Source of the DNA: Acidobacteriota bacterium
Lineage (GTDB): Bacteria; Acidobacteriota; Vicinamibacteria; Vicinamibacterales; UBA2999
NCBI GenBank assembly: GCA_030697165.1
Contig: JAUYQQ010000015.1
Coordinates: 480,645 to 544,644 of the forward strand
Reading direction: 5' to 3'
Length of the DNA stretch: 64,000 nt
Shown in pieces: positions 3,174-57,195 of this stretch. Position numbers and translations under genes: made by a program. Position 1 is the stretch's first letter. Every line of letters begins with the position of its first letter. Below the pieces are notes generated by a model. It worked only from the letters and a program-made list of their open reading frames with translations, had not been told where the DNA came from and ran no database searches.

Positions 3174-3229
3174 CAAGTGCTCAAGTGCTCAGGTGCTCAG
3201 GTGCTCAGGTGCTGGAGTGCTAAAGTGCT
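3174..3229. repeat. Tandem octamer repeat, seven units of NRRGTGCT
   Basis: Seven consecutive 8-bp units run without interruption: CAAGTGCT twice, CAGGTGCT three times, GGAGTGCT and AAAGTGCT. They fill the gap between two divergent genes, the CHRD gene on the minus strand and the GGCT-like gene on the plus strand. Confidence 0.9.
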
Positions 3230-23384: not shown

Positions 23385-23387
23385 TCA

Positions 23388-23479
23388 GGGATCAGGGATC
23401 AGGGATCAGGGATCGGGGATCAGGGATCAGGGATCAGGGATCAGGGATCGGGGATCGGGGATCGGGGATCAGGGGATCA
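23388..23479. repeat. Tandem heptamer repeat, thirteen units of GGGATC(A/G)
   Basis: Nearly perfect 7-bp units; the last has an extra G. They begin three bases after the TonB receptor stop and end 22 bases before the stop of the convergent D-aminoacylase gene. GGGATCG variants occur in units 4, 9, 10 and 11. Confidence 0.9.
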
Positions 23480-23500
23480 GGGGCAACCCTGGTCCCCGTC

Positions 23501-37971: not shown

Positions 37972-39444
37972 TCAGACCCCTGGAATCACGATCTTGATTC
38001 GATCGCCGGCGGCCGGCTGCACGCTCACGTCGTGGTCGTTCATGATCGCCAGCGTCGCCGCGTTCACGATGCTCTTGCCCTGGCGAACGGCGATCGATTG
38101 CCACGAGTCGCCGGGGCGGACCACGTAGAAATCAACCCGGTTGGGCCGCACGCTCGCTGCTTCCGCAGCGGTGAGCATGCGGAACGACTGGATGGCCTGC
38201 ACCACGTCGCGATCGACCAGGTTGAACTCGGCTTCGGGGGCAAACCCGGCCACGACGTACATTTGCCGCCCCACGGCAATATGGGCGGCGCGCATCAGCA
38301 CCTTGCCCGTTCCCTTGGCGGTGCCACGATAGAGGCCCACGTGCGCCGGCTGGCCGTTGATCGGCTCGATGCGGCCGTCCACCACGCTGTAGCCGGCGGC
38401 CCGCATGGCCGCCACGGCCACGTCACCGACCGAACGGCCGCCCCCGGCGCCGGCGGCCTGGCCCGCGAGCCGCGGCTGTTCGACTTCCTGCAGCACCATG
38501 TAGTGCTCGGTGCCGGGCTCTCGTGCCATCACCGCTTCGGGCGAGTTGATCACATCCCACCCTTCCGGGAACGTGAGCCCCAACCGCAGCAGCGGGTGCA
38601 GGAACACGTTGCCGCGCACAATGCCATCTTTCGGGTTATCGCCATGAACCAGGCCGGCAATGCGGTCGAGATACTGGTCGCGATTCGTGCGGCTCGCGGT
38701 TGGCGCGGCAAACTTCCCGGCCACCGGAGTGGCCTGCCCAACGCGCGTCCCCGGGTCGGGGTGCGTGGACAACCAGTTGGGCACGCCGTCTTCACTGAGC
38801 GCGTCGACGCGGGCGAGCGTTGCCAGGAATCGCGGGACGCCGGACGGATCCCAGCCGGCGCGCGATCCGTACTCCACGCCCAGGCGATCCGCTTCGATCT
38901 CCGCTTCGCGGCCATGCTTCAGGAACAACACGCTGAGGCCCGCGGCGCCCAGCTCCGTGAACGGCTGCGTGCCCGGCACGAAGATGCTCAGGATAGTAAG
39001 GCCAATGCCCGCCTGCGCCTGGCGCGTGTACGCCTGCGCCGCATGCCGCGCCGTGACGTGGCCAATCTCATGTCCAAGCACACCCGCCAACTCCGACTCG
39101 TCGTCCAGGTAGGCGAGGATTCCGCGGGTGACGTAGATGTAGCCGCCGGGCAACGCGAAGGCGTTGATCGCGGGACTGTCGACAACGGTGAAGGTCCACG
39201 GCAGGTTGGGACGATGGGAGGCGCGCGCCAGCTCCTGGCCGATTTCGCTGACGTAGTTCTGCAGGGCGGGGTCGTCGTAGACCCCCATTTCGCGGCGAAT
39301 CTCGGCGTCCTGCTGCTGGCCAATGGCCTGCTCCTCGGCTTCGCTCAGCAGAGACATCTGGCTCTTGCCGGTCACGGGGTTGGTGGCGCACGCCGCAGAG
39401 GCCACGAGCCCTGCCGCCAAAAGGATGCAGGTTGCCTTCCTCAT
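37972..39444 (-). CDS. M48 metalloprotease lipoprotein with C-terminal LysM-like domain
   Basis: About 490 residues. A lipoprotein-like signal (ILLAAGLVASAACA) is followed by NPVTGKSQMSLLSEAEE, typical of BepA/YfgC-type proteases. The zinc motif HEIGHVTARH and the downstream Glu in EIEADRLGVEY are intact. HPDPGTRV marks the end of the protease domain. A middle domain of unknown type and a C-terminal LysM (YVVRPGDSWQSIAVRQGKS) follow. It likely works on outer-membrane proteins while bound to peptidoglycan. The ATG at 39444 is preferred; the longer frame would overlap the permease gene. Confidence 0.88.
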   Translation of the reverse strand: MRKATCILLAAGLVASAACATNPVTGKSQMSLLSEAEEQAIGQQQDAEIRREMGVYDDPALQNYVSEIGQELARASHRPNLPWTFTVVDSPAINAFALPGGYIYVTRGILAYLDDESELAGVLGHEIGHVTARHAAQAYTRQAQAGIGLTILSIFVPGTQPFTELGAAGLSVLFLKHGREAEIEADRLGVEYGSRAGWDPSGVPRFLATLARVDALSEDGVPNWLSTHPDPGTRVGQATPVAGKFAAPTASRTNRDQYLDRIAGLVHGDNPKDGIVRGNVFLHPLLRLGLTFPEGWDVINSPEAVMAREPGTEHYMVLQEVEQPRLAGQAAGAGGGRSVGDVAVAAMRAAGYSVVDGRIEPINGQPAHVGLYRGTAKGTGKVLMRAAHIAVGRQMYVVAGFAPEAEFNLVDRDVVQAIQSFRMLTAAEAASVRPNRVDFYVVRPGDSWQSIAVRQGKSIVNAATLAIMNDHDVSVQPAAGDRIKIVIPGV

Positions 39445-39481
39445 GCCCCGGGCAGTGCAACCCTCGTACCAAGGCCGATTG

Positions 39482-40405
39482 TCACGCTTTTCGGTCATCG
39501 GCGACGACATTGGTGGCCAACACGATCGCGAAGATTGCGACGGCCGGCGCGAGGGTCCACGGAAATCTGGCCACCGCGTTGTAGTTGCCGGCCTCGGCGA
39601 GCATGTTGCCCCAGCTCGCCACGGGATCGGGGAATCCCATGCCGATGAACGACAACGTCGCCTCGGCGAGGATAAAGCCTGGCAGCAACAACGTGGCTTG
39701 CACCACGAGGTGGCCCGAGCAGGCGGGCATTAGGTGACGCAGCAGGATGTGTCCCGGCCCGGCGCCAAGCGAGCGCGCGGCTTGCACGTACTCGCGATCG
39801 CGCTCGGCGGCGACAATGGCGCGCACCCCCTTCGCCACGAATGGCCAGCCCACCGCCACGAAGATTGCGGCCACCAGCACGAACACCGTCGTGGCCGGCA
39901 AGACGAGGGGCAACACCGACCGCAGCACCAGCACTACGTAGATGACAGGCAGGATCAACACGAAGTCGGCGGCTCGCATGATCGTGTCGTCGATCCAGCC
40001 GCCGCGAAACCCGGCCCACGCACCCGCGAGCGCGCCGATCACGACTGCACCGAGCGTGGCGAGCAGGGCCAGGCCGACCGAGGTGCGGGCGCCGTACAAC
40101 AGTCGCGACAGCACATCGCGGCCGAAGTTGTCGGCGCCAAGCAGGAAGACCGGCTGACCGTCGACCTGGCCGAACCACGGGAGCGGCAACGTTCGGGTCG
40201 GGTCGCTCTCGAAACGCTGTTCGAGTCGATCCGCCAGCACAACCGGATGCACGACGGGCGCGCCGGCGCCCTGGAAGTGCGGCCGCATGGGTGGGGCGTG
40301 CAGGAAGTCGCGAAACCCGCGGCCGGCCTCGTACGGCGCGAGCAGCGGCGCCGCCAGCGACAAGCAGGCCAGCACGATCACGAACCACGCGGCGCGGCGG
40401 GTCAC
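39482..40405 (-). CDS. Peptide/oligopeptide ABC transporter permease (OppC-like)
   Basis: About 307 residues with an N-terminal helix (AAWFVIVLACLSLAAPLLA) and the LLGADNFGRDVLSRLLYGARTS motif characteristic of OppC/DppC, then five helices. The EAA loop is seen as EYVQAARSLGAGPGHILLRHL. The C-terminus ends soon after the last helix (NVVADDRKA). The GTG at 40403-40405 overlaps the stop of the OppB-like gene (GTGA). It pairs with that permease to form the membrane channel. No ATP-binding subunit gene is in the window. Confidence 0.88.
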   Translation of the reverse strand: MTRRAAWFVIVLACLSLAAPLLAPYEAGRGFRDFLHAPPMRPHFQGAGAPVVHPVVLADRLEQRFESDPTRTLPLPWFGQVDGQPVFLLGADNFGRDVLSRLLYGARTSVGLALLATLGAVVIGALAGAWAGFRGGWIDDTIMRAADFVLILPVIYVVLVLRSVLPLVLPATTVFVLVAAIFVAVGWPFVAKGVRAIVAAERDREYVQAARSLGAGPGHILLRHLMPACSGHLVVQATLLLPGFILAEATLSFIGMGFPDPVASWGNMLAEAGNYNAVARFPWTLAPAVAIFAIVLATNVVADDRKA

Positions 40406-41370
40406 CGCGCCTCCTGCGAGCGAACCCGCGGGTCGGCAATCGCCAGCAGCGCGTCGGCGATCCACGTCCCGGCGGCCAGGAAGAAGGCGCCACTCGCGGC
40501 ACAGCCGGCCACCAAATACAGGTCACGTGCCTTGAGCGCGTCGTACATCAACCGGCCCAGGCCCGGCCACGACGTGACCACCTCCACCACGAACGAGCCG
40601 CTGAACAGGCTCCCGATCATCACGCCGTAGAGGCCCAGCACCGAGCGCAGCGACACGGGCCAGGCGTGGCGGACGATGGCCAGGACAGGACCGACGCCGC
40701 GCGCGCGGCTGGCGATGACGAAGGGTTCGCGGACGGCTTTTTCAATGGCCTGCGACTGCAGCCGTTCGAGGGTCGCCGCCAGCGGCAGGGCCAGGGCGAG
40801 CGCCGGGATCGGGAGATGGCGGGCCAGGTCGCCGAGCCACTGCGCCCAGGTGAGGTCGATGCCGCCAGACGAGGTCATGCCGCCGACCGGCAGCCAGCCG
40901 GTGCGGGCGGCGAGAAACACGAGGGCCAGCGAGCCGATGAGCGGTGGAATGGACAAGGCCAGGACCGACAGCACGCGCACCGCGGCGCGGCCCAGGCCGC
41001 GCGAGCGGCTGCCGGAGTAGACGCCGAGCGGCAAGCCGATGGCGGTCGCCAGCAGCAGCGCCACCAGCGCGAGCACCGCGGTATTGAGTGCGCGTTCGCC
41101 GACCAGTTCGGTCACCGGCCGGGAGTACAGCAGGGAGCGGCCGAAGTCGAGCCGGACGGCGCCACCCAACCACGCGAGGTATTGCACCGCCAGCGGCCGT
41201 TCCAGTCCGAGTTCGGCGCGGCGTTTCGCAAGCGCGGCCGGATCGAGAAAGAGGGCCTGTTCGGACGTGATGTCGCCGGGGGCGAGCGTGGTCAGCAGCA
41301 GTGAGGCGGACGAGACGACCAGGACGAGCAACAGGGCGAACCCGAGACGCCTCAGGAGATAGCGTCCCAT
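40402..41370 (-). CDS. Peptide/oligopeptide ABC transporter permease (OppB-like)
   Basis: 322 residues with six helices. The N-terminal helix is GFALLLVLVVSSASLLLTTLAPGD; the rest includes RLDFGRSLLYSRPVTELVGER and the EAA loop (EPFVIASRARGVGPVLAIVRH), both OppB/DppB hallmarks. It forms the channel with the OppC-like subunit encoded by the overlapping downstream gene. The residues following RAL in the second half are Ala/Leu rich. It lies six bases after the binding-protein gene stop. Confidence 0.88.
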   Translation of the reverse strand: MGRYLLRRLGFALLLVLVVSSASLLLTTLAPGDITSEQALFLDPAALAKRRAELGLERPLAVQYLAWLGGAVRLDFGRSLLYSRPVTELVGERALNTAVLALVALLLATAIGLPLGVYSGSRSRGLGRAAVRVLSVLALSIPPLIGSLALVFLAARTGWLPVGGMTSSGGIDLTWAQWLGDLARHLPIPALALALPLAATLERLQSQAIEKAVREPFVIASRARGVGPVLAIVRHAWPVSLRSVLGLYGVMIGSLFSGSFVVEVVTSWPGLGRLMYDALKARDLYLVAGCAASGAFFLAAGTWIADALLAIADPRVRSQEAR

Positions 41371-41376
41371 ACGCCG

Positions 41377-43137
41377 CTACTGCCCCGTCGCGGCCGGCGA
41401 GCGCACCGTGATCGTGTCAGACGCCCACAGCAACTGCGGACGCAGGATGGTCGGCGACATCGATCCCACGCGGGCACTGACACCCATGTGCATGCGCGGC
41501 GCGACGAAGTAGATGATCGGCAGGTTGTCCGCGAAGATGTTCTGGACCTGGTCGAACAGGCGCTTGCGTTCATCCTGGTCGGTGCTGGAGGTCATCGCGT
41601 GCATCAGGTCGTCGATCTGCTTCTCCCACTCGGTCGCGGGGGTGACCTGGCCCATATTCCAGATGTGGGCGGAACCCGAGCTGAGCCAGAAGTCTGGATT
41701 CATGGCTGGATCGAGGTTGCTCGACGAGATAAAGAATGAAATCGCCTCGAAGTCGCCCTTGACCAAGCGCTGGATGAGCGCACCCTGCTCGAGGGCGACC
41801 ACGTCCACGGCAATGCCGAGCGGCCGGAGATCCTCGCGCAGCACCGCCGATCCGCGTTCGAGCGAGGAGTTGCCACGGAAGGTCAGCAGCGTGAAGCGGG
41901 CTTCCGTGCCCTTCTCGTCTTCGAGCCACTCGTCCGCATCGCGGTTGGCCAGGCCCAGGCCGGCGAGCAGGTCCTTCGCCTTGTCCAACGAGTGCGCGTA
42001 GCGGGGCACGTTGGGCGAGAACCACTTCTGGTTTCCGGGCGTCACGGGTCCCCAGATTGGCACGCCGGCGCCGAGGAACACCGTGTTGGCGAACGCCTCG
42101 CGATCCACGGCGTGCGAAATCGCCTGGCGGAACTCTTTGCGCGACATCCAGCTGCCGCGCGGGTCCCTGGCCCACTGCTGCGGGCGCAGGTTGAAGAAGA
42201 AGAGATCGGGATCGGTGCTGACGCCAAGCTCCAGCAGCTGGAGCCGGCCCTGGTCCACGAGCGGCCGCAGCGTGGCAACGTCTTCGGGGCGCACCTGCTG
42301 CTGCAGCATGTCGATCTGCCCGGACTGCAGGCGCACCAGCTCCGCATTCTGGTCCGGCACGACTTCGAGCACGAGCTGATCGAGGTACGGCAGGGCGACG
42401 CCGGCGGCGTCCTTCTTCCAGTAGCGCGGGTTGCGGTCGAAGATCAGCCGCTGGCCTGGCTCGTAGCGGGTCAGGACGAACGGCCCGAGCGACACCAGCT
42501 CGGTCAGGGGCGTGGCCACGCCCCACGCCTGCGGGAACGTGCCGGCGGCGAGCGCCGCCTCCAGCTTATGCTTCGGCGCCAGCGTCAGGTTGTCGAGGAG
42601 GGCGATGCCCGGCCCGAAGGCCCCGGGATAGGTAATGACAACAGTTCGCGCGTCGGGCGCGGCCACCGCAAGGGGTTGTCCGCCCACCCGTAGCGAACTG
42701 GCGAGCACGCTGTTGACCTTGGGGTCATAAATGGCCTGGAACGAGAACACGACGTCGGCCGAGGTAAAGGGGGTTCCGTCGGACCACGCGGCTTCGCGCA
42801 GCGTGAGGGTAAAGGTGCGATTGTCCGGGGACACGGTCCACGATTCGGCCAACGCCGGTTCGATCTCCTGCGTCGAGCGGTTGACACGAATCAACTTGCT
42901 TTGCGTCAGCTGGGAGATCAGGTCGGTCGCGAAGTTCTGGTCGGCCCACCGGTTGAACGTCCGTGGCTCGCTGCGCAGCGAGGAACTGAGCACGCCGCCA
43001 CGGGTGATGACGTCGGAGAAAACAATTTCTGTACCCGAATCCTCGGCTGGTTGTTGGCTGGACCACCAGCGCCAACCCATGAACGCCATCACGCCCACCA
43101 GCAGAACGCTCAGCAATGCCCGCGGTTGTCGGTTCAC
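41377..43137 (-). CDS. Peptide ABC transporter substrate-binding protein (OppA/DppA-like, SBP family 5)
   Basis: 586 residues. An N-terminal membrane helix (LLSVLLVGVMAFMGWRWW) is followed by a family 5 binding protein: FATDLISQLTQSKLIRVNRS, LAESWTVSPDNRTFTLTLRE with WSDGTPFTSADVVFSFQA, then RRLIFDRNPRYWKKD-type and KEFRQAISHAVDREAFAN motifs. The helix has no cleavage site or lipobox that I can see, so it may be a membrane anchor. It delivers peptides to the two permeases. The start is GTG. A palindrome (43150-43167) lies 12 bases upstream. Confidence 0.88.
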   Translation of the reverse strand: MNRQPRALLSVLLVGVMAFMGWRWWSSQQPAEDSGTEIVFSDVITRGGVLSSSLRSEPRTFNRWADQNFATDLISQLTQSKLIRVNRSTQEIEPALAESWTVSPDNRTFTLTLREAAWSDGTPFTSADVVFSFQAIYDPKVNSVLASSLRVGGQPLAVAAPDARTVVITYPGAFGPGIALLDNLTLAPKHKLEAALAAGTFPQAWGVATPLTELVSLGPFVLTRYEPGQRLIFDRNPRYWKKDAAGVALPYLDQLVLEVVPDQNAELVRLQSGQIDMLQQQVRPEDVATLRPLVDQGRLQLLELGVSTDPDLFFFNLRPQQWARDPRGSWMSRKEFRQAISHAVDREAFANTVFLGAGVPIWGPVTPGNQKWFSPNVPRYAHSLDKAKDLLAGLGLANRDADEWLEDEKGTEARFTLLTFRGNSSLERGSAVLREDLRPLGIAVDVVALEQGALIQRLVKGDFEAISFFISSSNLDPAMNPDFWLSSGSAHIWNMGQVTPATEWEKQIDDLMHAMTSSTDQDERKRLFDQVQNIFADNLPIIYFVAPRMHMGVSARVGSMSPTILRPQLLWASDTITVRSPAATGQ

Positions 43138-43167: not shown

Positions 43168-43362
43168 GTTTTACGCGTGCACGGAGATCGAATTTCGCCC
43201 GGTTTGCGTGCAGAACAGTATTTCGTGGCACCGCTGACCCGGGCCGGGCAACGGCTTGGCCGTAGTTCGGGGGCGGCCCGAAGCGCGACCGCCCGCATCG
43301 TAGAACACCAAACCCTGCCGATGCAATCAGTTAGCCGAACGTGGCGGTCGCCACGGTCCGGG

Positions 43363-43377
43363 TGGCACCGCCCGTGC
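43363..43377 (+). promoter_or_regulatory. Sigma-54-type (-24/-12) promoter before the HTH/subtilase operon
   Basis: TGGCACCGCCCGTGC against the consensus TGGCACGNNNNTTGC: 9 of 11 defined positions match, the GG and GC pairs are intact and their spacing is exact. Transcription would start near 43389, just before the AAGGAG of the HTH gene at 43406. A small dyad, GTGGCG-GT-CGCCAC, lies upstream at 43341-43354. A sigma-54 activator is encoded at the end of this gene group. Confidence 0.6.
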
Positions 43378-43405
43378 GATGTCTGTCGGTCAAGGAGCAC
43401 CGTTC

Positions 43406-43618
43406 ATGGACGTTCAAACGCTGACCTACAGCGGACCAGATTTTCAGCCACGGGTGGGCCGTAGCGTGAGCATCGAGCAAGCCGCGCAGCTGCTCGCCGT
43501 CTCCCGCCGCACCGTCTACTACCGCATCCGTGACGGTCGGCTCCGCACCATTCGCACCCTTGGGGGCTCCCAGCGGGTGCTGATGGACTCGGTTGAAGAA
43601 ATGCGCGGGTCCCATTAG
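43406..43618 (+). CDS. Small helix-turn-helix (excisionase/MerR-type HTH_17) protein
   Basis: 70 residues. After a 17-residue lead, the HTH reads SIEQAAQLLAVSRRTVYYRI, followed by RDGRLRTIRTLGGSQRVLMD, the usual wing. Such proteins bind DNA as small regulators or excisionases; no integrase or phage gene is near, so regulator is preferred. AAGGAG precedes the ATG, and a sigma-54-type promoter sits 29 bases upstream. It is the first gene of the plus-strand group with the repeat-tailed subtilase, 65 bases before it. Confidence 0.75.
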   Translation: MDVQTLTYSGPDFQPRVGRSVSIEQAAQLLAVSRRTVYYRIRDGRLRTIRTLGGSQRVLMDSVEEMRGSH

Positions 43619-43683: not shown

Positions 43684-45345
43684 ATGGAGAACCTGCAGCC
43701 GACCGCCCGCACACGCCGCGGCCGATCACAACCTGCTTTTCACGGTTCCACCGCCGCGTTCACGATCGCGGTCCTCCTGCTGGCGTGTGTCACCTCGGCC
43801 GCGGCCAGCGAGCGGCGCGCACGCCTTTCGTCGGATCTGGAGGCGCACCTCAACTCGAGCTCGTCGGCGCCGATCGACATCATCATTTCCGGGTCGCAGG
43901 AACGGATCGACCGTCTGGCCAGGCGGCATGGCCTGGTGGTGAAGAAGGTCCTGTCGTCGGGAGCGGTGCTCACGGCCTCGAAGCGCGCGATGGCGGCGCT
44001 GTCGCAGGACGTGGAAGTGGATGCGGTGTCAGGTGATTCGACCGTGCGCTCGCACCTGGCGGTGGCGGCCAATACCATCGGCGCGGACGCCGCGTGGGCC
44101 GGCGCGATCGCGACGCTTGGGGCGGTCGACGGGCGTGGCGTGGGGGTGGCCATTATCGACAGCGGCATTGCCGATCACCCGGCCCTGCGGAACCGGGTCG
44201 TCGCGAGCGTGGACTTCACGAGCGGGCGCGGCCGCGGCCGCGATGACTACGGCCACGGCACCCACATTGCCGGCATCGTCGCGGCACGGTCGTTCCGGAA
44301 CTCGGCAGAGGGCGCGGAGAGTGGCATTGCGCCGGCGGCGCACCTGGTCAACCTCAAGGTGCTCGGCGCCGATGGCACGGGCCAGGCCAGCGACGTGATC
44401 GAAGCCATCGACTGGGCGATTCGTTATCGCAAGGACTTTGGCATCCGCGTGCTGAACCTGTCGCTCGGTGCGGCCCCGACGCAGAGCTACAAGGACGACC
44501 CGATCTGCCAGGCGGTGGAGCGGGCGGTCAAGGCCGGGCTGGTGGTGGTGGCGTCGGCTGGCAACTACGGCACCAATGACAAGAACCAGCAGATCTACGG
44601 CAGCGTGACCTCGCCGGGCATTTCGCCCTACGCGATCACGGTCGGTGCGATCCGCACGCAGGGCACGGCCGACAAGTCGGACGATGAGGTGGCGCCGTGG
44701 AGTTCGAAGGGCCCGACGCTGGTCGACCACATCGTGAAGCCCGACCTGGTGGCGCCAGGCGCGAAGATCATCTCGACGGCGGCAGCGGGGGCAACCCTGA
44801 TGACGCAGTATCCGGAGCGGCTGATCGACGGCCCCGGGTCGCGCGATTACTTCTCGATGAGCGGCACCAGCATGTCGGCAGCGGTCGTGTCCGGCGCGGT
44901 GGCGCTGTTACTGGACGGGCGCAGCGACCTGACGCCGCTGCAGGTGAAACTGGCACTGCAGGCCAGCGCCGACTTCATGCCCGCAGCCGGATTGCTGGCA
45001 GCCGGCGCCGGCAGTCTGAATCTTGAAGATCTGGGCGGAGTTCTTCCAATCGTAGGAAGTCTGAGCCTTACGAAAGACCGCGGTTTCGCGTATCCCGCTG
45101 CTGCGAGACCCCTAGTGGAGTCAAACCAGATCATCTGGGGTGACCAAATCATCTGGGGTGACCAGATCATCTGGGGCGACCAGATCATCTGGGGCGACCA
45201 GATCATCTGGGGCGACCAGATCATCTGGGGCGACCAGATCATTTGGGGCGACCAGATCATCTGGGGCGACCAGATCATTTGGGGCGACCAGATCATTTGG
45301 GGCGACCAGATCATTTGGGGCGACCAGATCATCTGGGGCGACTAA
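43684..45345 (+). CDS. Secreted subtilisin-like peptidase (S8) with twelve C-terminal QIIWGD repeats
   Basis: 553 residues. Signal peptide about 20-42 (AFTIAVLLLACVTSAAAS), inhibitor/prodomain about 45-110 (IDIIISGSQERIDRLARRHG), then the S8 domain with Asp159 (AIIDSGIA), His191 (GHGTHIAGI) and Ser396 (MSGTSMSAAVVSGA); all catalytic residues are present. After a linker (about 445-480) residues 482-553 are twelve contiguous copies of QIIWGD, ending directly at the stop codon. Start ATG 43684 follows GGAG at 43674; an upstream TTG is rejected. The tail could be a secreted peptide source, a beta-solenoid, or a surface-binding tail. Downstream lie a micro-ORF with the same motif, an HD-GYP protein and a sigma-54 activator. 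Confidence 0.92.
   Translation: MENLQPTARTRRGRSQPAFHGSTAAFTIAVLLLACVTSAAASERRARLSSDLEAHLNSSSSAPIDIIISGSQERIDRLARRHGLVVKKVLSSGAVLTASKRAMAALSQDVEVDAVSGDSTVRSHLAVAANTIGADAAWAGAIATLGAVDGRGVGVAIIDSGIADHPALRNRVVASVDFTSGRGRGRDDYGHGTHIAGIVAARSFRNSAEGAESGIAPAAHLVNLKVLGADGTGQASDVIEAIDWAIRYRKDFGIRVLNLSLGAAPTQSYKDDPICQAVERAVKAGLVVVASAGNYGTNDKNQQIYGSVTSPGISPYAITVGAIRTQGTADKSDDEVAPWSSKGPTLVDHIVKPDLVAPGAKIISTAAAGATLMTQYPERLIDGPGSRDYFSMSGTSMSAAVVSGAVALLLDGRSDLTPLQVKLALQASADFMPAAGLLAAGAGSLNLEDLGGVLPIVGSLSLTKDRGFAYPAAARPLVESNQIIWGDQIIWGDQIIWGDQIIWGDQIIWGDQIIWGDQIIWGDQIIWGDQIIWGDQIIWGDQIIWGDQIIWGD
45127..45342 (+). repeat. Twelve-copy 18-bp in-frame tandem repeat encoding QIIWGD
   Basis: Twelve contiguous 18-bp units CAGATCATCTGGGGCGAC with no spacer and no length change. 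Differences occur only at third codon positions: GGT in units 1 and 2, CAA in unit 2, ATT in units 7, 9, 10 and 11. Every unit therefore encodes the same six residues. The stop codon follows the last unit at once. Confidence 0.97.
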
Positions 45346-45390
45346 CGCTTGCCGCTGCCTTTAACTGCACGATTCTGCGAGGAGACGAAC

Positions 45391-45420
45391 ATGGCAAAGC
45401 TCATCATCTGGGGCGAATAG
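45391..45420 (+). CDS. Nine-residue micro-ORF MAKLIIWGE (candidate peptide)
   Basis: ATG GCA AAG, then codons for LIIWGE and a TAG. An AGGAG ends six bases before the ATG, one of the best-placed ribosome binding sites in the region. The last 18 sense bases match the subtilase repeat unit at 15 of 18 positions, and the peptide ends in IIWGE instead of IIWGD. It sits 45 bases after the subtilase and 30 before the HD-GYP gene. It may be a signal or effector peptide, a translated leader controlling the next gene, or a decayed repeat copy. I know of no described homologue. Confidence 0.55.
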   Translation: MAKLIIWGE

Positions 45421-45450: not shown

Positions 45451-47787
45451 ATGGCTGCGCGATTCACGACGCTATCGAAACTTGGCAAGGTGTATGTCCT
45501 TGGAGTGTCAGCAATTGGCCTCGCAATTGCAGCGCACTCCCTCGGTCAGCTGTTTGTCCAGCAGGTCGACCCTCAGTGGCTAATTCTCGCGGCACTGACC
45601 CTTCTGACTGGGGCGTTCACGGTTCGTATTCCCGGAATTCCGGCGCACCTTTCGGTCTCTGACACATTTGTCCTCGTTTCTGTGCTTCTCTTCGGACCTG
45701 CCGCAGGAACGATCATCGCTCTTCTGGATGCGCTGATCATCTCACTTCGCGTCGGTCGGAACACCCGCGAACCATTTCGGGTCATCTTCAACGTCTCGGC
45801 AGTGGCGCTATCGACTAACACCGCGGCACAGGTGTTTTTCGGCGTCGCCGGGATACAGCCCTACTCGATTGAACCGACGCCACTCGGACGAATCCTGTTT
45901 CCGCTTTTCCTGTGTGCGCTTACTTACTTCCTGCTTAACAGCTGGCTGGTCACATTTGCTCTTGCTCTCGAAAAAGGACGGCCGCCGTTCGCCATATGGC
46001 GCGACAATTTTCTGTGGCTTTCGGTTAACTACTTCGTCGGCGGCTCAGTAGCAGGGTTACTGGTTACGTATTCTCGCGAGATTGATCTAACAACCCTGGG
46101 GATCATCGTTCCGCTCCTTCTGGTTTCATATCTCACGTTCAAAACATCTCTCGGCCGAATCGAAGATGCCAATCGCCATCTGACACAAGTCAACGCGATG
46201 TACTTGTCCACCATCGAGACGCTCGCCATGGCGATTGACGCAAAGGACCAGATAACGCACGGACATATTCGGCGTGTTCAGCGATACGCGGTTGGCCTGG
46301 CGAGAGCGGTAGGCGTCAACGATGACACCCAGATCAAAGCGATCGAAGCGGCGGCTCTGTTGCACGACATGGGAAAGCTTGCGATTCCTGAATTCATCCT
46401 CAACAAGCCAGGGCGGCTTACGTCGAATGAGTTCGACGTCATGAAGCAACATGCCAACATCGGCGCGGACATTCTTTCATCCATTGAATTCCCTTATCCG
46501 GTCGTTCCAATCGTCCGCCACCACCACGAGAGCTGGGATGGCACCGGATATCCGGACGCCCTGAAGGGTGTCGAGATTCCTCTGGGTGCTAGGGTGCTCT
46601 CTGTTGTCGATTGTTATGACGCATTGACATCGGACCGGCCCTACCGGCCGCGACTGTCTGTTGATGACGCCATCCAGATATTGGTTCAGCGAAGAGGATC
46701 CATGTACGACCCATTAATTGTCGACAAGTTTATCGAGACCCAGAAGCAACTTTCCGAAGAGGCGCAAGAAGGAGACCGCGAGAAGGACGCCATCGATTCA
46801 ATTGCGACCAAGCTCCGAATAACGCCAGAGACGACAGCCCCGCCACTAGGCGAGGTCCCTGAGCAGCTACCGCTCCAGATCCTCTCCCTATTACGATCTA
46901 TTCATCCGTCTCCACGAGGACTCTCTGTGGAGGATTTCGGCGTGATTGTGTCTAGGCAGGTCCTGCGCCTCACCGATGCGCGCTCTGTGGCGTTGTACGC
47001 CGTCGCAGAAAACGAACACTCAATTCGGTGCCTTTACGCTGATGGTCCACTGTCACAGTTGGTCGGCGGACCTGAAATTGCTCTCGGGGAGCGACTTTCC
47101 GGATGGGTAGCCGCCCACAGGACGCCAATCTGGAACTCTGATGCCACCCTAGACCTTCCCAGCGAACTCGCGAGATCCGCCGGAGTGGACCTCGGCTCAA
47201 GCGTGCCGTTGATGGACGGGGATCTTCTTGTCGGCACTCTGACCTTTTATGCGAGCGCAGGAGGCGAGATTGCGGTCGAACAACGACTACTGATTCAATC
47301 CATCGCTCCGCAATTGGCAACTGCTCTCTCTGCATCTGTTGCTCATGACCAAGTTGCCGCAATCGACGGAAGCAATCGGTCTTCACGAGAAGCCTTGTAC
47401 GCGATTCTAGATGCCCTGCTTTCCCACAGAGCTCGTGGAGTTGCTCGCTCCCACCCAGACTCTCAGTCCATCGTCTTGTTGACTCTCCTCCCGCACGGAG
47501 GATCTGACGGAACCTGGAACACCGAACAGGCCCACCTGTTAGCAAACATCTCGGCGGCAACTGGACGCACCGGCACTGTGGTGCGTCTGTCGTCTGATAA
47601 GTTACTCGTCACGGCTTCGCTGAGGCAACTCACCAGCCTCGGACTCGACTCAGGTTCGACCGCAAGAGCAGCTCAGAGAAGTCTCGGAATCAGCGTCAAG
47701 GAGATCGGCAATTCTCTTGAGCTGCGTAGAGTTCTTGGCTTGATTCAGCAAGGCGATCAGTCGTCAGGAAAGCCGCTAGTGCACTGA
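45451..47787 (+). CDS. Membrane HD-GYP phosphodiesterase with GAF domain
   Basis: 778 residues. About six to eight membrane helices (10-220) form the sensor part. The HD-GYP domain (about 245-430) has H305-D306 in LLHDMGKLAIP, triple His 357-359 followed by ESWDGTGYP with the GYP at 366-368, so it should be active on cyclic di-GMP. A GAF domain follows (about 480-630, SVALYAVAENEHS, LGERLSGWVAAHRTPIWNSD). The C-terminal 140 residues are unassigned. The gene has clearly lower GC than its neighbours and uses codons such as AGA and TTA. No clear Shine-Dalgarno precedes the ATG. The activator gene follows after 13 bases. Confidence 0.9.
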   Translation: MAARFTTLSKLGKVYVLGVSAIGLAIAAHSLGQLFVQQVDPQWLILAALTLLTGAFTVRIPGIPAHLSVSDTFVLVSVLLFGPAAGTIIALLDALIISLRVGRNTREPFRVIFNVSAVALSTNTAAQVFFGVAGIQPYSIEPTPLGRILFPLFLCALTYFLLNSWLVTFALALEKGRPPFAIWRDNFLWLSVNYFVGGSVAGLLVTYSREIDLTTLGIIVPLLLVSYLTFKTSLGRIEDANRHLTQVNAMYLSTIETLAMAIDAKDQITHGHIRRVQRYAVGLARAVGVNDDTQIKAIEAAALLHDMGKLAIPEFILNKPGRLTSNEFDVMKQHANIGADILSSIEFPYPVVPIVRHHHESWDGTGYPDALKGVEIPLGARVLSVVDCYDALTSDRPYRPRLSVDDAIQILVQRRGSMYDPLIVDKFIETQKQLSEEAQEGDREKDAIDSIATKLRITPETTAPPLGEVPEQLPLQILSLLRSIHPSPRGLSVEDFGVIVSRQVLRLTDARSVALYAVAENEHSIRCLYADGPLSQLVGGPEIALGERLSGWVAAHRTPIWNSDATLDLPSELARSAGVDLGSSVPLMDGDLLVGTLTFYASAGGEIAVEQRLLIQSIAPQLATALSASVAHDQVAAIDGSNRSSREALYAILDALLSHRARGVARSHPDSQSIVLLTLLPHGGSDGTWNTEQAHLLANISAATGRTGTVVRLSSDKLLVTASLRQLTSLGLDSGSTARAAQRSLGISVKEIGNSLELRRVLGLIQQGDQSSGKPLVH

Positions 47788-47800
47788 GTCGGAGGGATCC

Positions 47801-50536
47801 GTGACTCCTGAGTCAACGATCATCTCATTGGTGGAGTGCGGCCTTTTCCGGGACGCGGCAACTGCTATCGACGAGCAACCGGACCGTCCACTCGCGTTGC
47901 GAGTCTTACGATGTCAGCTTGAGCCTCACGTTGGAAGCCCGACGCGCGCTATCGATTCGGCCGAACGGCTACTCAAGGAGCGGCTCACAAACTCCGAGAA
48001 AGCATCGTGTTGGGACATCATCGGGCGGGGGACCTTAAGCGTTGGCCATATCGATGCCGGCTTACGTGGAATGAAGCGCGCAGCCCAGTTGGCAGCTGAA
48101 TCCGGGGATGCGCGCCTGCAGACGAGGTTCATGTGTAGTTTTGCGCAGGGGTTGCTGCACTGGGTAGGAATCGAACCGGCCGCAATCGAAGTCTCCAAGC
48201 TTCGCAAAGAAGTAATTCGATCTGGCGATCCACATTCGATGGTCGCCCTGCACTACCTGTGTGCCGAGATCCAAGCCAAGAGGGGACTACTGCTCGCCGC
48301 CGAGCAAAGTATCCAAACCGCGAAGACGATCCTCGGGGGATTCGCGAATGTGTGGCAACAGGGTCGCTTGGCAATCACGAGCACCGGAATCGCTATCTTC
48401 AACGCAGACTACGCGGCGGCTCTTGAATCTACGAGAGAGGCCCTAGATTGCGCAGAGCGGTCGGGCTCACGCGAGCTAAAGATTCCGGCCCTCGGAAATC
48501 TGGCGTATATCAATGTCGCGCAGGAGTCGATTGAGGCGGCGAAAGGGGTAATCGGCGAGGTGCTCGGAATTGTCCGACGAGGCGAGGCGTGTGAAATAGG
48601 CATCCGCGATACGCAGATGCAGTTAGCTCTTACGTCTGGCGACCTTGAGCTGGCGAGAAGCCTCGCTGATGAAGTCTATTTGACTTCAGAGAAGCTTGAG
48701 AGGGGCAACTCCTATTACGGACTCTGGCATCTCCTCACTCGTGTGAAGTGGCTCTATCGAACCGGGCAGGCCGACGCCGGTGTCGCCCTCGCCCTCGATG
48801 CCATCCCCCGCATAGAACGCATGGCCGATCGTAATCTTCTCGAGCGGATGCAGTTGCTTGCTGCCGAGGGCCTCGGGCGCATTGGCCGCGTAAGAGAAGG
48901 TGCCCAGCTGATGGCCGACGCCGTGACCGCCAACCCAGAACCGCCCCTCGAAATGCTGGCCGAGGCGTCGCGTGTCGCCGGCCGGCTCACCGCTCAGGAC
49001 GATCCGGCGGCCGCCGCCGGCCACTTCGCACGCGCGGCCCGCATCCTGCACGCTGTCGGCAACCTCAGCGCCGGCGGCGAGATTCAACGCGACCTCCGCG
49101 ACAGCGGCGCCCGGCCGCAGGACGCCAATGGCCACGCCGCCGCGCCGATGGGGCGCGACGGCCTACAGCCGCAACCACCCGCCGACCTCCGCCCCCCGGC
49201 GGCCGCCCTCACCGAACGCATCGCCGCCCTCGTTGACCTCGCCGCCCATCCGCCCCTCCTCGGTGCCGAGACCCTCTCGCTGATCGCCGATACCCGCGCT
49301 GCCCTGCACGCTCGAATGGTCGAAAGCGGACCCGGCGGCAACGGCGAGCACGCGGTGGCCGACCCGGGCTTAATCTCAATGCCGTTGGGACTCCATCGCG
49401 ACCGCCACTTTTCGATCGTCGCACAACCACAGCCCACCGCCTCCTCGCGGGCCACGCTGCTGGCCATCGAACGGCTGGTCCACACCGCCCTGGCCCTTGT
49501 CCAGGCGCGTGTCCAGGAGCGCGAGCGCACCACTCTGTGGCCGGAACCCTCGCCGGAGCAGCAGCTCGGATTGGTGTGCGCCTCGGAGCGCATGCTCGAC
49601 CTGGTCAAGTCGGTGCGCCACATCGCGGCGTCGAACCTCGCCGTGCTGATTACAGGCGAGACCGGCGTCGGCAAGGAACTGTTCGCCCGCGCGTTGCACC
49701 AGGCGTCGGGCCGGCGCGATCGCGCCTTCCTGCCATTCAACTGCACCACCGTGCCACGCGAGATCCTCGACAGCCAGTTGTTCGGCCACCGCCGCGGCGC
49801 CTTCACCGGCGCCCTGGACGATTCGCCTGGGCTGATTCGTTCGGCCGCCGGCGGCACCCTGTTGCTCGACGAGATCGGCGAGATGAGCCTGGAGGCTCAG
49901 CCGAAGCTGCTGCGCTTCCTCGAAACCGGCGAGATCCTGCCGCTGGGCGAAACCCGGCCTCAGTTCGTAGACGTGCGCGTGGTTGCCGCCACCAACGCCA
50001 ATCTCGAGCAACTGGTGGCCGACGGCAGGTTCCGCGAGGACCTGTATTACCGGCTAAGCGTGATTCCGCTGCAGGTGCCGCCGCTGCGCGAACGCCGCGA
50101 GGAGATCCCGCTGCTCGTCGAGCACTTCCTCGACAAGTTCTCACACGAGCTGCAGAGGCCGCTGTTGCGGGTCGCCGAGGAAACACTCCACTACCTGGTA
50201 CTGTACCGCTGGCCGGGCAACGTGCGGCAACTGGCCAACGAAGTGCGGCGCATGGTGGCCCTGGCCGAGCCGGGCGCGGTGTTGATGCCCGAGCACCTGT
50301 CCGCCGTCATCACCGCAAGCCGCCGCACGGTACCCGCCGATCAACTTGTCCTCGAACCCACCGAGATGGTGATGCGGATCGATCAGCCGCTGGCCGCCGC
50401 CACCGAACACCTGGAGCGCGCTCTCATCCAGCGCGCCCTCAAGAGCTGCAACGGCAAAGTGGACGATGCGGCCAAGCTGCTCGGCCTGTCGCGCAAGGGC
50501 CTGTACCTCAAGCGCCAGCGCCTCGGGATCGAATAG
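47801..50536 (+). CDS. Sigma-54-dependent activator with N-terminal TPR-like domain
   Basis: 911 residues. The N-terminal 400 residues are TPR-like helices (AALESTREALDCAERSGSRE, ARSLADEVYLTSEKLERGN). An Ala/Pro-rich GAF-like or linker part (about 430-590) follows, then the AAA+ domain: Walker A G619-ETGVGKE, the sigma-54 contact loop G666-AFTGA, Walker B LLLDEIGEM and WPGNVRQLANEVRRM. A Fis-type HTH (KVDDAAKLLGLSRKGLYLKR) closes the protein. There is no response-receiver domain. The GTG has GGAGGGA before it. Base composition changes sharply near 48765 (residue 320): moderate GC before, very high GC after. Confidence 0.93.
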   Translation: MTPESTIISLVECGLFRDAATAIDEQPDRPLALRVLRCQLEPHVGSPTRAIDSAERLLKERLTNSEKASCWDIIGRGTLSVGHIDAGLRGMKRAAQLAAESGDARLQTRFMCSFAQGLLHWVGIEPAAIEVSKLRKEVIRSGDPHSMVALHYLCAEIQAKRGLLLAAEQSIQTAKTILGGFANVWQQGRLAITSTGIAIFNADYAAALESTREALDCAERSGSRELKIPALGNLAYINVAQESIEAAKGVIGEVLGIVRRGEACEIGIRDTQMQLALTSGDLELARSLADEVYLTSEKLERGNSYYGLWHLLTRVKWLYRTGQADAGVALALDAIPRIERMADRNLLERMQLLAAEGLGRIGRVREGAQLMADAVTANPEPPLEMLAEASRVAGRLTAQDDPAAAAGHFARAARILHAVGNLSAGGEIQRDLRDSGARPQDANGHAAAPMGRDGLQPQPPADLRPPAAALTERIAALVDLAAHPPLLGAETLSLIADTRAALHARMVESGPGGNGEHAVADPGLISMPLGLHRDRHFSIVAQPQPTASSRATLLAIERLVHTALALVQARVQERERTTLWPEPSPEQQLGLVCASERMLDLVKSVRHIAASNLAVLITGETGVGKELFARALHQASGRRDRAFLPFNCTTVPREILDSQLFGHRRGAFTGALDDSPGLIRSAAGGTLLLDEIGEMSLEAQPKLLRFLETGEILPLGETRPQFVDVRVVAATNANLEQLVADGRFREDLYYRLSVIPLQVPPLRERREEIPLLVEHFLDKFSHELQRPLLRVAEETLHYLVLYRWPGNVRQLANEVRRMVALAEPGAVLMPEHLSAVITASRRTVPADQLVLEPTEMVMRIDQPLAAATEHLERALIQRALKSCNGKVDDAAKLLGLSRKGLYLKRQRLGIE

Positions 50537-56067: not shown

Positions 56068-57089
56068 CCCGCCTTCGCCAAGGCTCCGGCGAGGCAGGGT
56101 CCGTGCATTCGTTCGTCGATGGCTTGATGCGCGTCAAGCGGGCGCCGTGGCTGGTGCTCGGCGTGTGGCTATCGACGCTGCTGCTCGCGCTGCCGCTGTC
56201 GCTGGCCTTGCACGGCCTGATCGGCCAGCACCTGGGCGATAGCCTGGCCGCGCAAGCCGCTGCCGATGGCATGAACTTCGACTGGTGGAACGAGTTCCTG
56301 GCGCACTCGTCCGGTGTGGGCCAGACGTTCGTTCCGGCGATCCTCAGCTTTGCCGCGGTGCTCGCGAACCTGGCCGGCCTTGCTGACGGCAGCGGGCCGC
56401 CCGCGCCCGTGGTGTGGGTGGTCGCGGCCCAGTTGCTGGTGTCGACCTTCCTGATTGGCGGCGTACTGGACCGCCTGGCGCGCGATCACGCCATCGGCGC
56501 GGGCGCCTTCTTCGCGGCCTGCGGCGTCTATGTCTTCCGCTTCGTCAGGCTGAGCGTGGTCACGGTCGCGGTCTACGCGTTCCTGTTCATCACCGTCCAC
56601 CGCTGGCTCTTCGACGGTGTCTACCCGCGCCTGATCGACGAGCTGACGGTCGAGCGAACGGCATTTTTTTATCGGCTGGCCCTCTATACGGTGTTCGGCG
56701 CGCTGGTCCTGCTCGCCAACCTGGTGTTCGACTATGCGAAGGTGCGGGCGGTGGTTGAGGACCGGCGCAGCATGATCGGGGCGCTCTCGGCGGGCCTCCG
56801 GTTCGTGCGCCGCAACCTCGGTGCCACGATCGGCCTGTACGCGCTCAACTCGCTGGCGTTCCTGGCGGTGTTGTTCCTCTACTACCTGGCCGCGCCTGGC
56901 GCGGCGGCCAACGCCCTGGCGTTCGCCATCGGGCAACTGTTCATCGTGCTGCGCGTGGTCATCCGCCTGCAATTCGCGGCCTCGCAAACGGCCTTGTTCC
57001 AGGGCCGCCTGGCGCACGCCGGCTACACGGCGCGCCGGCTCGCGAAGTGGCCGGACTCGCCGGCGGCGGAAGCAATCGGTCCGGCGTAA
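56064..57089 (+). CDS. Polytopic membrane protein of unknown family, coupled to the M1 peptidase
   Basis: About 341 residues with about six hydrophobic helices, including WLVLGVWLSTLLLALPLSLA, VVWVVAAQLLVSTFLIGGV, VVTVAVYAFLFITV, LALYTVFGALVLLANLVF and FLAVLFLYYLAAPG. A basic stretch (YAKVRAVVEDRRS) faces the cytoplasm. I recognise no specific family. The ATG overlaps the M1 stop (ATGA) and the first codons (TRLRQGSGEAGS) are encoded by an interspersed element, so the repeat supplies the N-terminus; an internal GTG or ATG could be the ancestral start. Confidence 0.65.
   Translation: MTRLRQGSGEAGSVHSFVDGLMRVKRAPWLVLGVWLSTLLLALPLSLALHGLIGQHLGDSLAAQAAADGMNFDWWNEFLAHSSGVGQTFVPAILSFAAVLANLAGLADGSGPPAPVVWVVAAQLLVSTFLIGGVLDRLARDHAIGAGAFFAACGVYVFRFVRLSVVTVAVYAFLFITVHRWLFDGVYPRLIDELTVERTAFFYRLALYTVFGALVLLANLVFDYAKVRAVVEDRRSMIGALSAGLRFVRRNLGATIGLYALNSLAFLAVLFLYYLAAPGAAANALAFAIGQLFIVLRVVIRLQFAASQTALFQGRLAHAGYTARRLAKWPDSPAAEAIGPA
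56068..56098 (+). repeat. Interspersed element at the 5' end of a gene
   Basis: CCCGCCTTCGCCAAGGCTCC then GGCGAGGCAGG, directly after the ATG of the membrane protein gene. It encodes RLRQGSGEA in this frame. Confidence 0.75.
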
Positions 57090-57096
57090 GGCAATG

Positions 57097-57195
57097 GTCC
57101 GGCTAACTGCCTCCGCCCAAGGCTACGGCGGGTCAAGAAGCCGGACGCCACATTCAGGCCGGACACCACATGCAGATGGCGGACGCCACATTCAG
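57097..57195. repeat. Composite repeat followed by tandem GGACGCCACATTCAG units
   Basis: GTCCGGCT (57097-57104) and AGCCGGAC (57139-57146) enclose the CTCCGCCCAAGGCTACGGCG element. Three 18-20 bp tandem units with GGAC(G/A)CCACAT(T/G)CAG follow at 57140, 57158 and 57176; the last covers the stop codon of the minus-strand gene. Confidence 0.8.

Follow-up and report, generated by a model that had tools for sequence, protein, structure and literature searches.

Directly behind a subtilisin-like protease of Vicinamibacterales lies a conserved micro-gene of about nine codons, which by sequence carries the tryptophan-centred motif of the protease tail and its own ribosome-binding site. The chances are about even that the tail and this gene are parts of one peptide signalling module, in which the product of the gene would be a leaderless hydrophobic peptide. 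This reading is favoured by the conservation of the mini-ORF, its ribosome-binding sites, its co-occurrence with OppA and a sigma-54 activator, the TPR repeats of this activator and a promoter motif. Signal-peptide-like ORFs with the same motif in Terriglobia and a parallel in Streptococcus pyogenes also argue for it. The protease and its tail lie in the window, the 64,000-nucleotide stretch of an Acidobacteriota genome that was analyzed here, at the following positions.

43684..45345, plus strand: S8 (subtilisin-like) protease with W-repeat tail (Pfam Peptidase_S8, E 1.4e-49)
45127..45342, plus strand: repeat array of 12 tandem QIIWGD units, C-terminal end of the protease

The protease ORF starts with ATG at 43684, ends with the stop codon at 45343-45345 and encodes 553 amino acids. 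It possesses the Peptidase_S8 domain and the D, H and S catalytic motifs of the S8 family, with the residues DSG, HGTH and GTSM invariant or nearly so in alignments. The final 72 residues are 12 contiguous perfect QIIWGD units. Differences between the 18-bp units are confined to CAA/CAG, ATC/ATT and GGT/GGC and are all silent (pS 0.318, pN 0). The analysis thus agrees with the initial annotation, which had described a secreted S8 peptidase with 12 such units and silent differences only. The tail array has the top score in the window (387, next 159; Tandem Repeats Finder). Searching the whole 5.39-Mb genome with the pattern ATHATHTGGGGNGA gave 14 matches, 12 in the tail, one in the nine-codon ORF and one inside an unrelated protein, whereas the reversed control gave 0. 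Further tandem arrays in the window are a 7-bp unit (TCAGGGA, about 14 copies) at 23385-23482, directly behind the stop of a 1311-residue ORF, an 8-bp, CAAGTGCT-like unit with 7 copies at 3174-3229, and degenerate short repeats of 18-20 bp at 57064-57198.

The protease was detected at E<=1e-60 in seven of the nine genomes of the genus. The seven congeneric tails are composed of six units, QIIWGD, TIIWGD (two genomes), ILIWGD, VIVWGD, DIIVWGN and SIIWGN, with about 6-13 copies and an array that is mostly uniform within one genome; in the DIIVWGN tail the units are separated by linkers. Units elsewhere in the order include LVWGD, IIWAD, IVWSD, IIWTD, VVWTN and IFWGQ, and those in named relatives of other classes include VVWGS, ALWGS and AVWGD, with a few relatives lacking such a tail. 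Selection for the exact QIIWGD hexapeptide, which the initial annotation had considered, is therefore rejected, as congeneric tails differ in sequence. Because arrays are mostly uniform within a genome and different between genomes, it is probable that each genome homogenises its own array while a looser pattern centred on W persists. In the comparison of homologues proposed by the same annotation, the W and the following small residue were mostly kept, whereas flanks, linkers and copy number varied, a result intermediate between the two that it had envisaged. Judged from these units, the kept pattern is two hydrophobic residues, W and a small residue, often followed by D, N or E.

A W-less tail layout with GVLISD/GVLVGD-like hexapeptide repeats was seen at L197, L225, L228, L229, L239, L261 and L266; carriers of the GVLISD-like form are several Pyrinomonadaceae, Blastocatellia and unnamed Acidobacteria. 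The genome of the window itself encodes a second protease of the same family (L149, contig C14), whose tail consists of spaced DNIVWGN-type units. No HD-GYP match was present on its 3.4-kb contig.

It is extremely unlikely that the tail has no function and arose by recent tandem duplication under little or no selection. The 96% DNA matches among the units (Tandem Repeats Finder) and the differences in unit and copy number between close relatives would be expected from such a process. However, the W-centred pattern reappears in differing sequences throughout the order and in further classes of Acidobacteriota, the units in the window differ only silently, and a separate ORF carries the motif. 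This ORF lies behind the protease.

45391..45420, plus strand: nine-codon ORF encoding MAKLIIWGE, with counterparts in 22 of 23 order-level loci
45380..45384, plus strand: ribosome-binding site AGGAG of the nine-codon ORF, read from the sequence

The ORF shares the motif of the protease tail, carries no annotation, and is spaced by 45 nt from the protease stop and by 30 nt from the following HD-GYP gene. Both the ORF and its operon context lay outside the coordinates covered by the initial annotation and were unnoticed there. A search for the motif near a stop codon matched 22 of 43 genomes of the same family, and the 21 genomes with no match include fragmented assemblies. In 20 of the 22 the match is a nine-codon ORF of the form M/V-x-x-[LV]-I-I-W-G-[ED]. 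In G004 the motif ends a longer ORF and the cluster is absent from the stretch fetched, and G031, where one of the matches is near a contig end, is likewise not counted among the 20. The pN/pS ratio of the family mini-ORFs is 0.061 for codons 4-9 and 0.77 for codons 2-3, but the low ratio is partly built in, since the pattern used to find these loci already specifies most of the peptide. Due to this bias, loci chosen by protease similarity were used instead.

The protease was matched in 102 of 162 genomes of the order, and 60 stretches were fetched by hand choice from that list. In nine of them the contig ends before the protease stop, 17 are without a close HD-GYP homologue and 34 have one. 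Mini-ORFs were defined as ORFs of 7-10 residues whose C-terminus consists of two hydrophobic residues and W, with no more than two residues behind it. The gap between protease and HD-GYP gene measures 60-200 nt in 23 of the 34 pairs, and 22 of these 23 gaps harbor a mini-ORF, whereas 0.18 would be expected from dinucleotide shuffles of those regions. The lone exception is L144 (identical to locus L189). Pairs with a gap below 60 nt harbor none (0/11). Among the diverged peptides of the order are MKRIIVWD, MRIIVWTD, MSIVVWG and MAKRSIIVWS. Of 41 mini-ORFs, 36 have a Shine-Dalgarno match of 4 nt or longer in front of them, compared with a mean of 9.6 and a maximum of 19 in shuffled sequences. 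Thirty of the 41 encode nine residues, eight encode 8, two encode 10 and one encodes 7, and in Vicinamibacterales the HD-GYP gene follows 12-84 nt downstream. The tight pairs L315-L325 of W-tail protease and HD-GYP gene have no mini-ORF, OppA or -24/-12 motif, and in L325 a sigma-54 gene lies on the upstream side of the protease. Contig ends inside or near the repeat tail occur in 9 of the 60 stretches (e.g. L110, L111, L140, L167 and L169), so the true numbers of such tails and of mini-ORFs behind them are probably higher than counted. A loose mini-ORF pattern, searched phylum-wide, gave 15 matches in 15 of 396 genomes. Ten of them fall in clusters, nine in the family and one (G304) in a different family of the same order. 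The five others look like chance matches by their sequence; for one, L047, no protease or HD-GYP was found in its 3 kb.

The tail might also serve as a structural element, which is the main rival to signalling and which we regard as unlikely. The W motifs would then be short beta strands, the tail a beta-solenoid or amyloid-like fibre anchoring the protease, and the mini-peptide its seed, cap or regulator. AlphaFold places one strand on every tail hexapeptide, and sequence-varied repeats keep the hydrophobic-W-small pattern, both as expected for such a role. Peptide and tail also agree at the residue before W more often than in shuffles (24/39, shuffled mean 16.2, p 0.003, without correction for kinship). 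For the residue that follows W the agreement is 19/39 against 18.2 by shuffling, and only one of the three positions compared exceeds the shuffles. The missing covariation after W indicates that the tail may not be the same signal as the peptide. However, the full-length model (15 sequences) has a pLDDT of 32-42 in the tail, the five tail-only models are discordant (79.7, 55.5, 55.0, 53.3 and 31.6), and Foldseek against the PDB returned no match at E<=0.001. Left-handed beta-helix hexapeptide proteins have a six-residue period with hydrophobic and small positions. The tail resembles them in its period and in the modelled strand per hexapeptide, but differs in the W of every unit, the variable linkers of relatives, the low or discordant model confidence and the absence of a structural match. 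A structural role would also leave the linkage with a peptide importer and a TPR activator unexplained. These genes are arranged around the protease as follows.

41377..43137, minus strand: OppA-type substrate-binding protein (Pfam SBP_bac_5, E 6e-75)
40402..41370, minus strand: OppB-type permease (Pfam BPD_transp_1, E 1.9e-23)
39482..40465, minus strand: OppC-type permease (Pfam BPD_transp_1, E 1.7e-19)
37972..39510, minus strand: M48 peptidase (Pfam Peptidase_M48, E 1.7e-35), by synteny often beside Opp genes
45451..47787, plus strand: MASE9 / HD-GYP / GAF protein of the c-di-GMP phosphodiesterase type (Pfam HD_5, E 9.2e-39; GAF_2; MASE9)
47801..50536, plus strand: sigma-54 activator with a TPR-type N-terminal domain of about 560 residues (Pfam Sigma54_activat, E 1.5e-63; 20-orthologue profile)

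The Opp-type genes lie upstream of the protease in divergent orientation. They encode the SBP_bac_5 binding protein and the two BPD_transp_1 permeases of an Opp-type importer; no ATPase was found among the neighbouring ORFs scanned by Pfam, a subset of the window's ORFs. Whether the M48 peptidase is a member of the module is uncertain. In the activator of the window, Pfam identified the sigma-54 activator domain and a Fis-type HTH, and its TPR match alone is weak (E 0.073). A profile of the N-terminus from 20 orthologues, compared with the PDB, matched consensus TPR proteins (E 5e-30) and also G-protein-signalling modulator 2 (5e-17), and TPR_2 and TPR_12 were each found by Pfam in 14 of the 20 orthologues.

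Co-occurrence was scored over the 49 loci that offered sufficient context. Of the clusters with a mini-ORF, 30 of 33 have OppA, versus 1 of 12 loci without mini-ORF (Fisher 4e-7, kinship uncorrected), and a sigma-54 activator lies downstream in 22 of 22 versus 2 of 9 (Fisher 1.4e-5, kinship uncorrected). L178 (identical to L128) accounts for the single OppA case and for one of the two activator cases in the group without mini-ORF; it was placed there by the ribosome-site rule, though the gap scan finds a mini-ORF. L189 is the true exception, as it has an activator but neither mini-ORF nor OppA. Upstream of the protease, two further elements were located.

43362..43378, plus strand: -24/-12 (sigma-54) type promoter motif GTGGCACCGCCCGTGCG, recurrent upstream of mini-ORF clusters
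43406..43618, plus strand: 70-residue helix-turn-helix protein (Pfam HTH_17, E 6.6e-9)

The HTH_17 gene starts 27 nt after the -24/-12-like motif. TGGCAY-N6-TGC, pointing at the protease, occurs upstream in 27 of 37 usable mini-ORF regions versus 0 of 12 others, with the exact pattern phrased after a consensus scan of the same sequences; the count as scripted is 27/38 and includes L064, which lies at a contig edge. The initial scan used a sigma-54 consensus. In the window alone the motif is not significant (2 matches, 1.65 expected). This arrangement fits sigma-54 control of the genes for HTH protein, protease, peptide, HD-GYP protein and activator, and such control would imply autoregulation. 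By these counts the mini-ORF is linked with the peptide importer, the TPR activator and the sigma-54-type motif, all of which are jointly absent from the tight pairs examined.

A different form of the small gene was found in Acidobacteriales/Terriglobia. Eighty named loci were scanned for ATG ORFs of 20-60 residues with a ribosome site, a basic start, a hydrophobic core and a W in the last five residues. This yielded only ORFs in L203 (two), L246 and L247, all within 651 nt of the protease match. They have signal-peptide-like starts, lie beside W-tail proteases and end in ASAVWGS, ASAVWGG or ASAVWGSC; the general form of the ending in the Terriglobia clusters is AVWG[SGN]. The pattern A-x-A-[VIM]-W-G-x was then searched in 299 genomes of the class; among the 62 matches listed, two are the known L203 ORFs. 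Thirteen of the 62 regions were fetched and contained two new signal-peptide-like ORFs, in L302 and L309, the only two of the 13 with a protease match. In all six Terriglobia ORFs a basic n-region is followed by a hydrophobic core and an A-x-A site, as read from the sequence, and the predicted cut would yield a C-terminal piece of four or five residues that starts with VWG. Homologues of OppA/B/C (26-33% identity) are encoded in the L203, L246 and L309 stretches and were not found in those of L247 or L302. Strong profile-search matches were limited to 3 of the 299 class genomes, all already in the model (next best E 0.001), so this form is evidently rare in the class.

The Terriglobia ORFs precede the protease in L246, L247 and L309 and lie between protease and sigma-54 gene in L203 (both ORFs) and L302. 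These positions bear on the proposal that the mini-ORF is a cis-acting leader peptide, the translation of which controls the downstream HD-GYP gene. A short ORF with a ribosome-binding site 12-84 nt before this gene in Vicinamibacterales is what a leader would look like, but in Terriglobia the ORFs are followed by the protease or the sigma-54 gene and not by HD-GYP. A fixed position directly upstream of one regulated gene is thus not seen across the two groups. The motif in common with the protease tail would moreover be a coincidence, and we consider a leader function very improbable.

The activators scanned beside the L203 and L302 peptides harbor PilZ and no TPR, which speaks against TPR as the receptor throughout and for c-di-GMP as the element in common. 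The position of PilZ at the C-terminus of these sigma-54 activators (L203:10228-11577, L302:1097-2476) is an unusual c-di-GMP/sigma-54 link. PilZ beside these peptides also points to c-di-GMP in an alternative in which the mini-peptide is never exported and acts as an intracellular ligand of the HD-GYP protein, or of its activator, adjusting c-di-GMP in one cell. The absence of a signal sequence from the mini-peptide in Vicinamibacterales and the HD-GYP gene close behind it are in line with this. The signal-peptide-like starts of the six Terriglobia ORFs, the co-occurring Opp importer and the motif shared with a secreted tail speak against it, and we judge it quite unlikely.

The preferred reading, peptide signalling, would proceed as follows. 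The nine-codon gene would produce a leaderless hydrophobic peptide, here MAKLIIWGE, and this peptide and/or fragments of the protease tail would accumulate outside the cytoplasm. The divergently encoded Opp-type importer would take up the peptides, which would be sensed inside the cell by the TPR domain of the activator and/or the MASE9/HD-GYP protein. The activator would then drive the -24/-12-type promoter ahead of the operon, so that protease, peptide, c-di-GMP enzyme and activator would rise together. The tail, for its part, may supply additional signal, mimic it or act as its sink. A stricter version, in which Acidobacteriota have a peptide pheromone system of their own, is possible but rather doubtful. 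In it, the mini-gene (leaderless, or with a signal peptide in some Terriglobia) and the protease tail would feed one signal pool, the protease would release or imitate the signal, Opp would import it, and the TPR-type sigma-54 activator would read it jointly with the c-di-GMP enzyme and autoinduce the operon.

Several observations argue against signalling. The peptide is nearly constant across the family, and known signal codes usually diverge, but most of the peptide was already set by the pattern that retrieved these loci. Three of 33 clusters have no OppA and no ATPase occurs among the neighbouring ORFs scanned, the activators next to two of the Terriglobia peptides contain PilZ but no TPR, L189 has an activator without a mini-ORF, and there is no candidate for exporting a leaderless peptide. 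The initial annotation had listed a processed multi-copy peptide among the possible roles of the tail. The neighbourhood favours this role, although the support comes from the micro-ORF, the Opp-type importer and the TPR regulator, all of which had gone unnoticed earlier. The yeast alpha-factor precursor is a multicopy peptide pheromone precursor. Like it, the tail strings together repeats of a short motif within a single secreted chain, with variable linkers in some relatives; unlike it, the copies sit on a protease. We know of no cleavage sites in the W-repeat protease tail.

Streptococcal short hydrophobic peptide/Rgg quorum sensing likewise involves small hydrophobic peptide precursors, Opp uptake and a TPR receptor. 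The Terriglobia ORFs resemble these precursors in that they are hydrophobic towards the N-terminus and have the motif at the C-terminal end, but differ in that no Rgg homologue was seen, a signal peptidase cut is predicted and the motif is repeated in the protease tail. The closest known kind, by analogy and as far as the available text of PMC10518010 describes it, is the leaderless communication peptides (LCPs) of Firmicutes. According to that text, LCP ORFs of the RopB clan mostly encode 8-10 amino acids, and in Streptococcus pyogenes it is known from experiment that a leaderless peptide of 8 residues acts, through a TPR regulator, on the secreted protease encoded next to it. The system described here shares with the LCP systems, as presented there, the ultrasmall hydrophobic leaderless ORF with its ribosome-binding site, the TPR regulator and the secreted protease nearby. 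It differs in its occurrence in Acidobacteriota and in its regulator, a sigma-54 activator with TPR that lies two genes away, with no RopB/Rgg homologue. Further differences from that account are the S8 protease with a motif-repeating tail, the HD-GYP gene in between and the adjacent Opp-type genes. The size of about 8-10 residues and the Shine-Dalgarno sequence thus agree with LCPs, whereas a receptor of the RopB/Rgg type (HTH plus TPR) was not found, so the peptide is not an LCP member. No description of the tail, the mini-ORF or the system was found in the open-access literature on subtilase tails, Acidobacteriota peptide signalling, leaderless peptides outside Firmicutes, RRNPP in diderms or the gene combination. 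Six tail-motif strings retrieved no open-access paper on this subject, judged by titles. The terms Acidobacteri, outside of Firmicutes and non-Firmicutes are absent from the available part of the RRNPP survey PMC10075063.

If the stricter pheromone version holds, a diderm phylum would have quorum sensing by linear peptides, and a protease would serve at the same time as a multicopy precursor of the pheromone. Should the peptide be a signal, intracellularly read linear peptides, which the accessible part of PMC10518010 describes for Firmicutes and phages, would extend to Acidobacteriota. Annotation misses genes of only seven to ten codons, and this one became traceable across the order through the motif repeated in the neighbouring protease. 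With a structural role, too, the pairing of a W-repeat tail with a conserved gene product of nine residues would be unusual.
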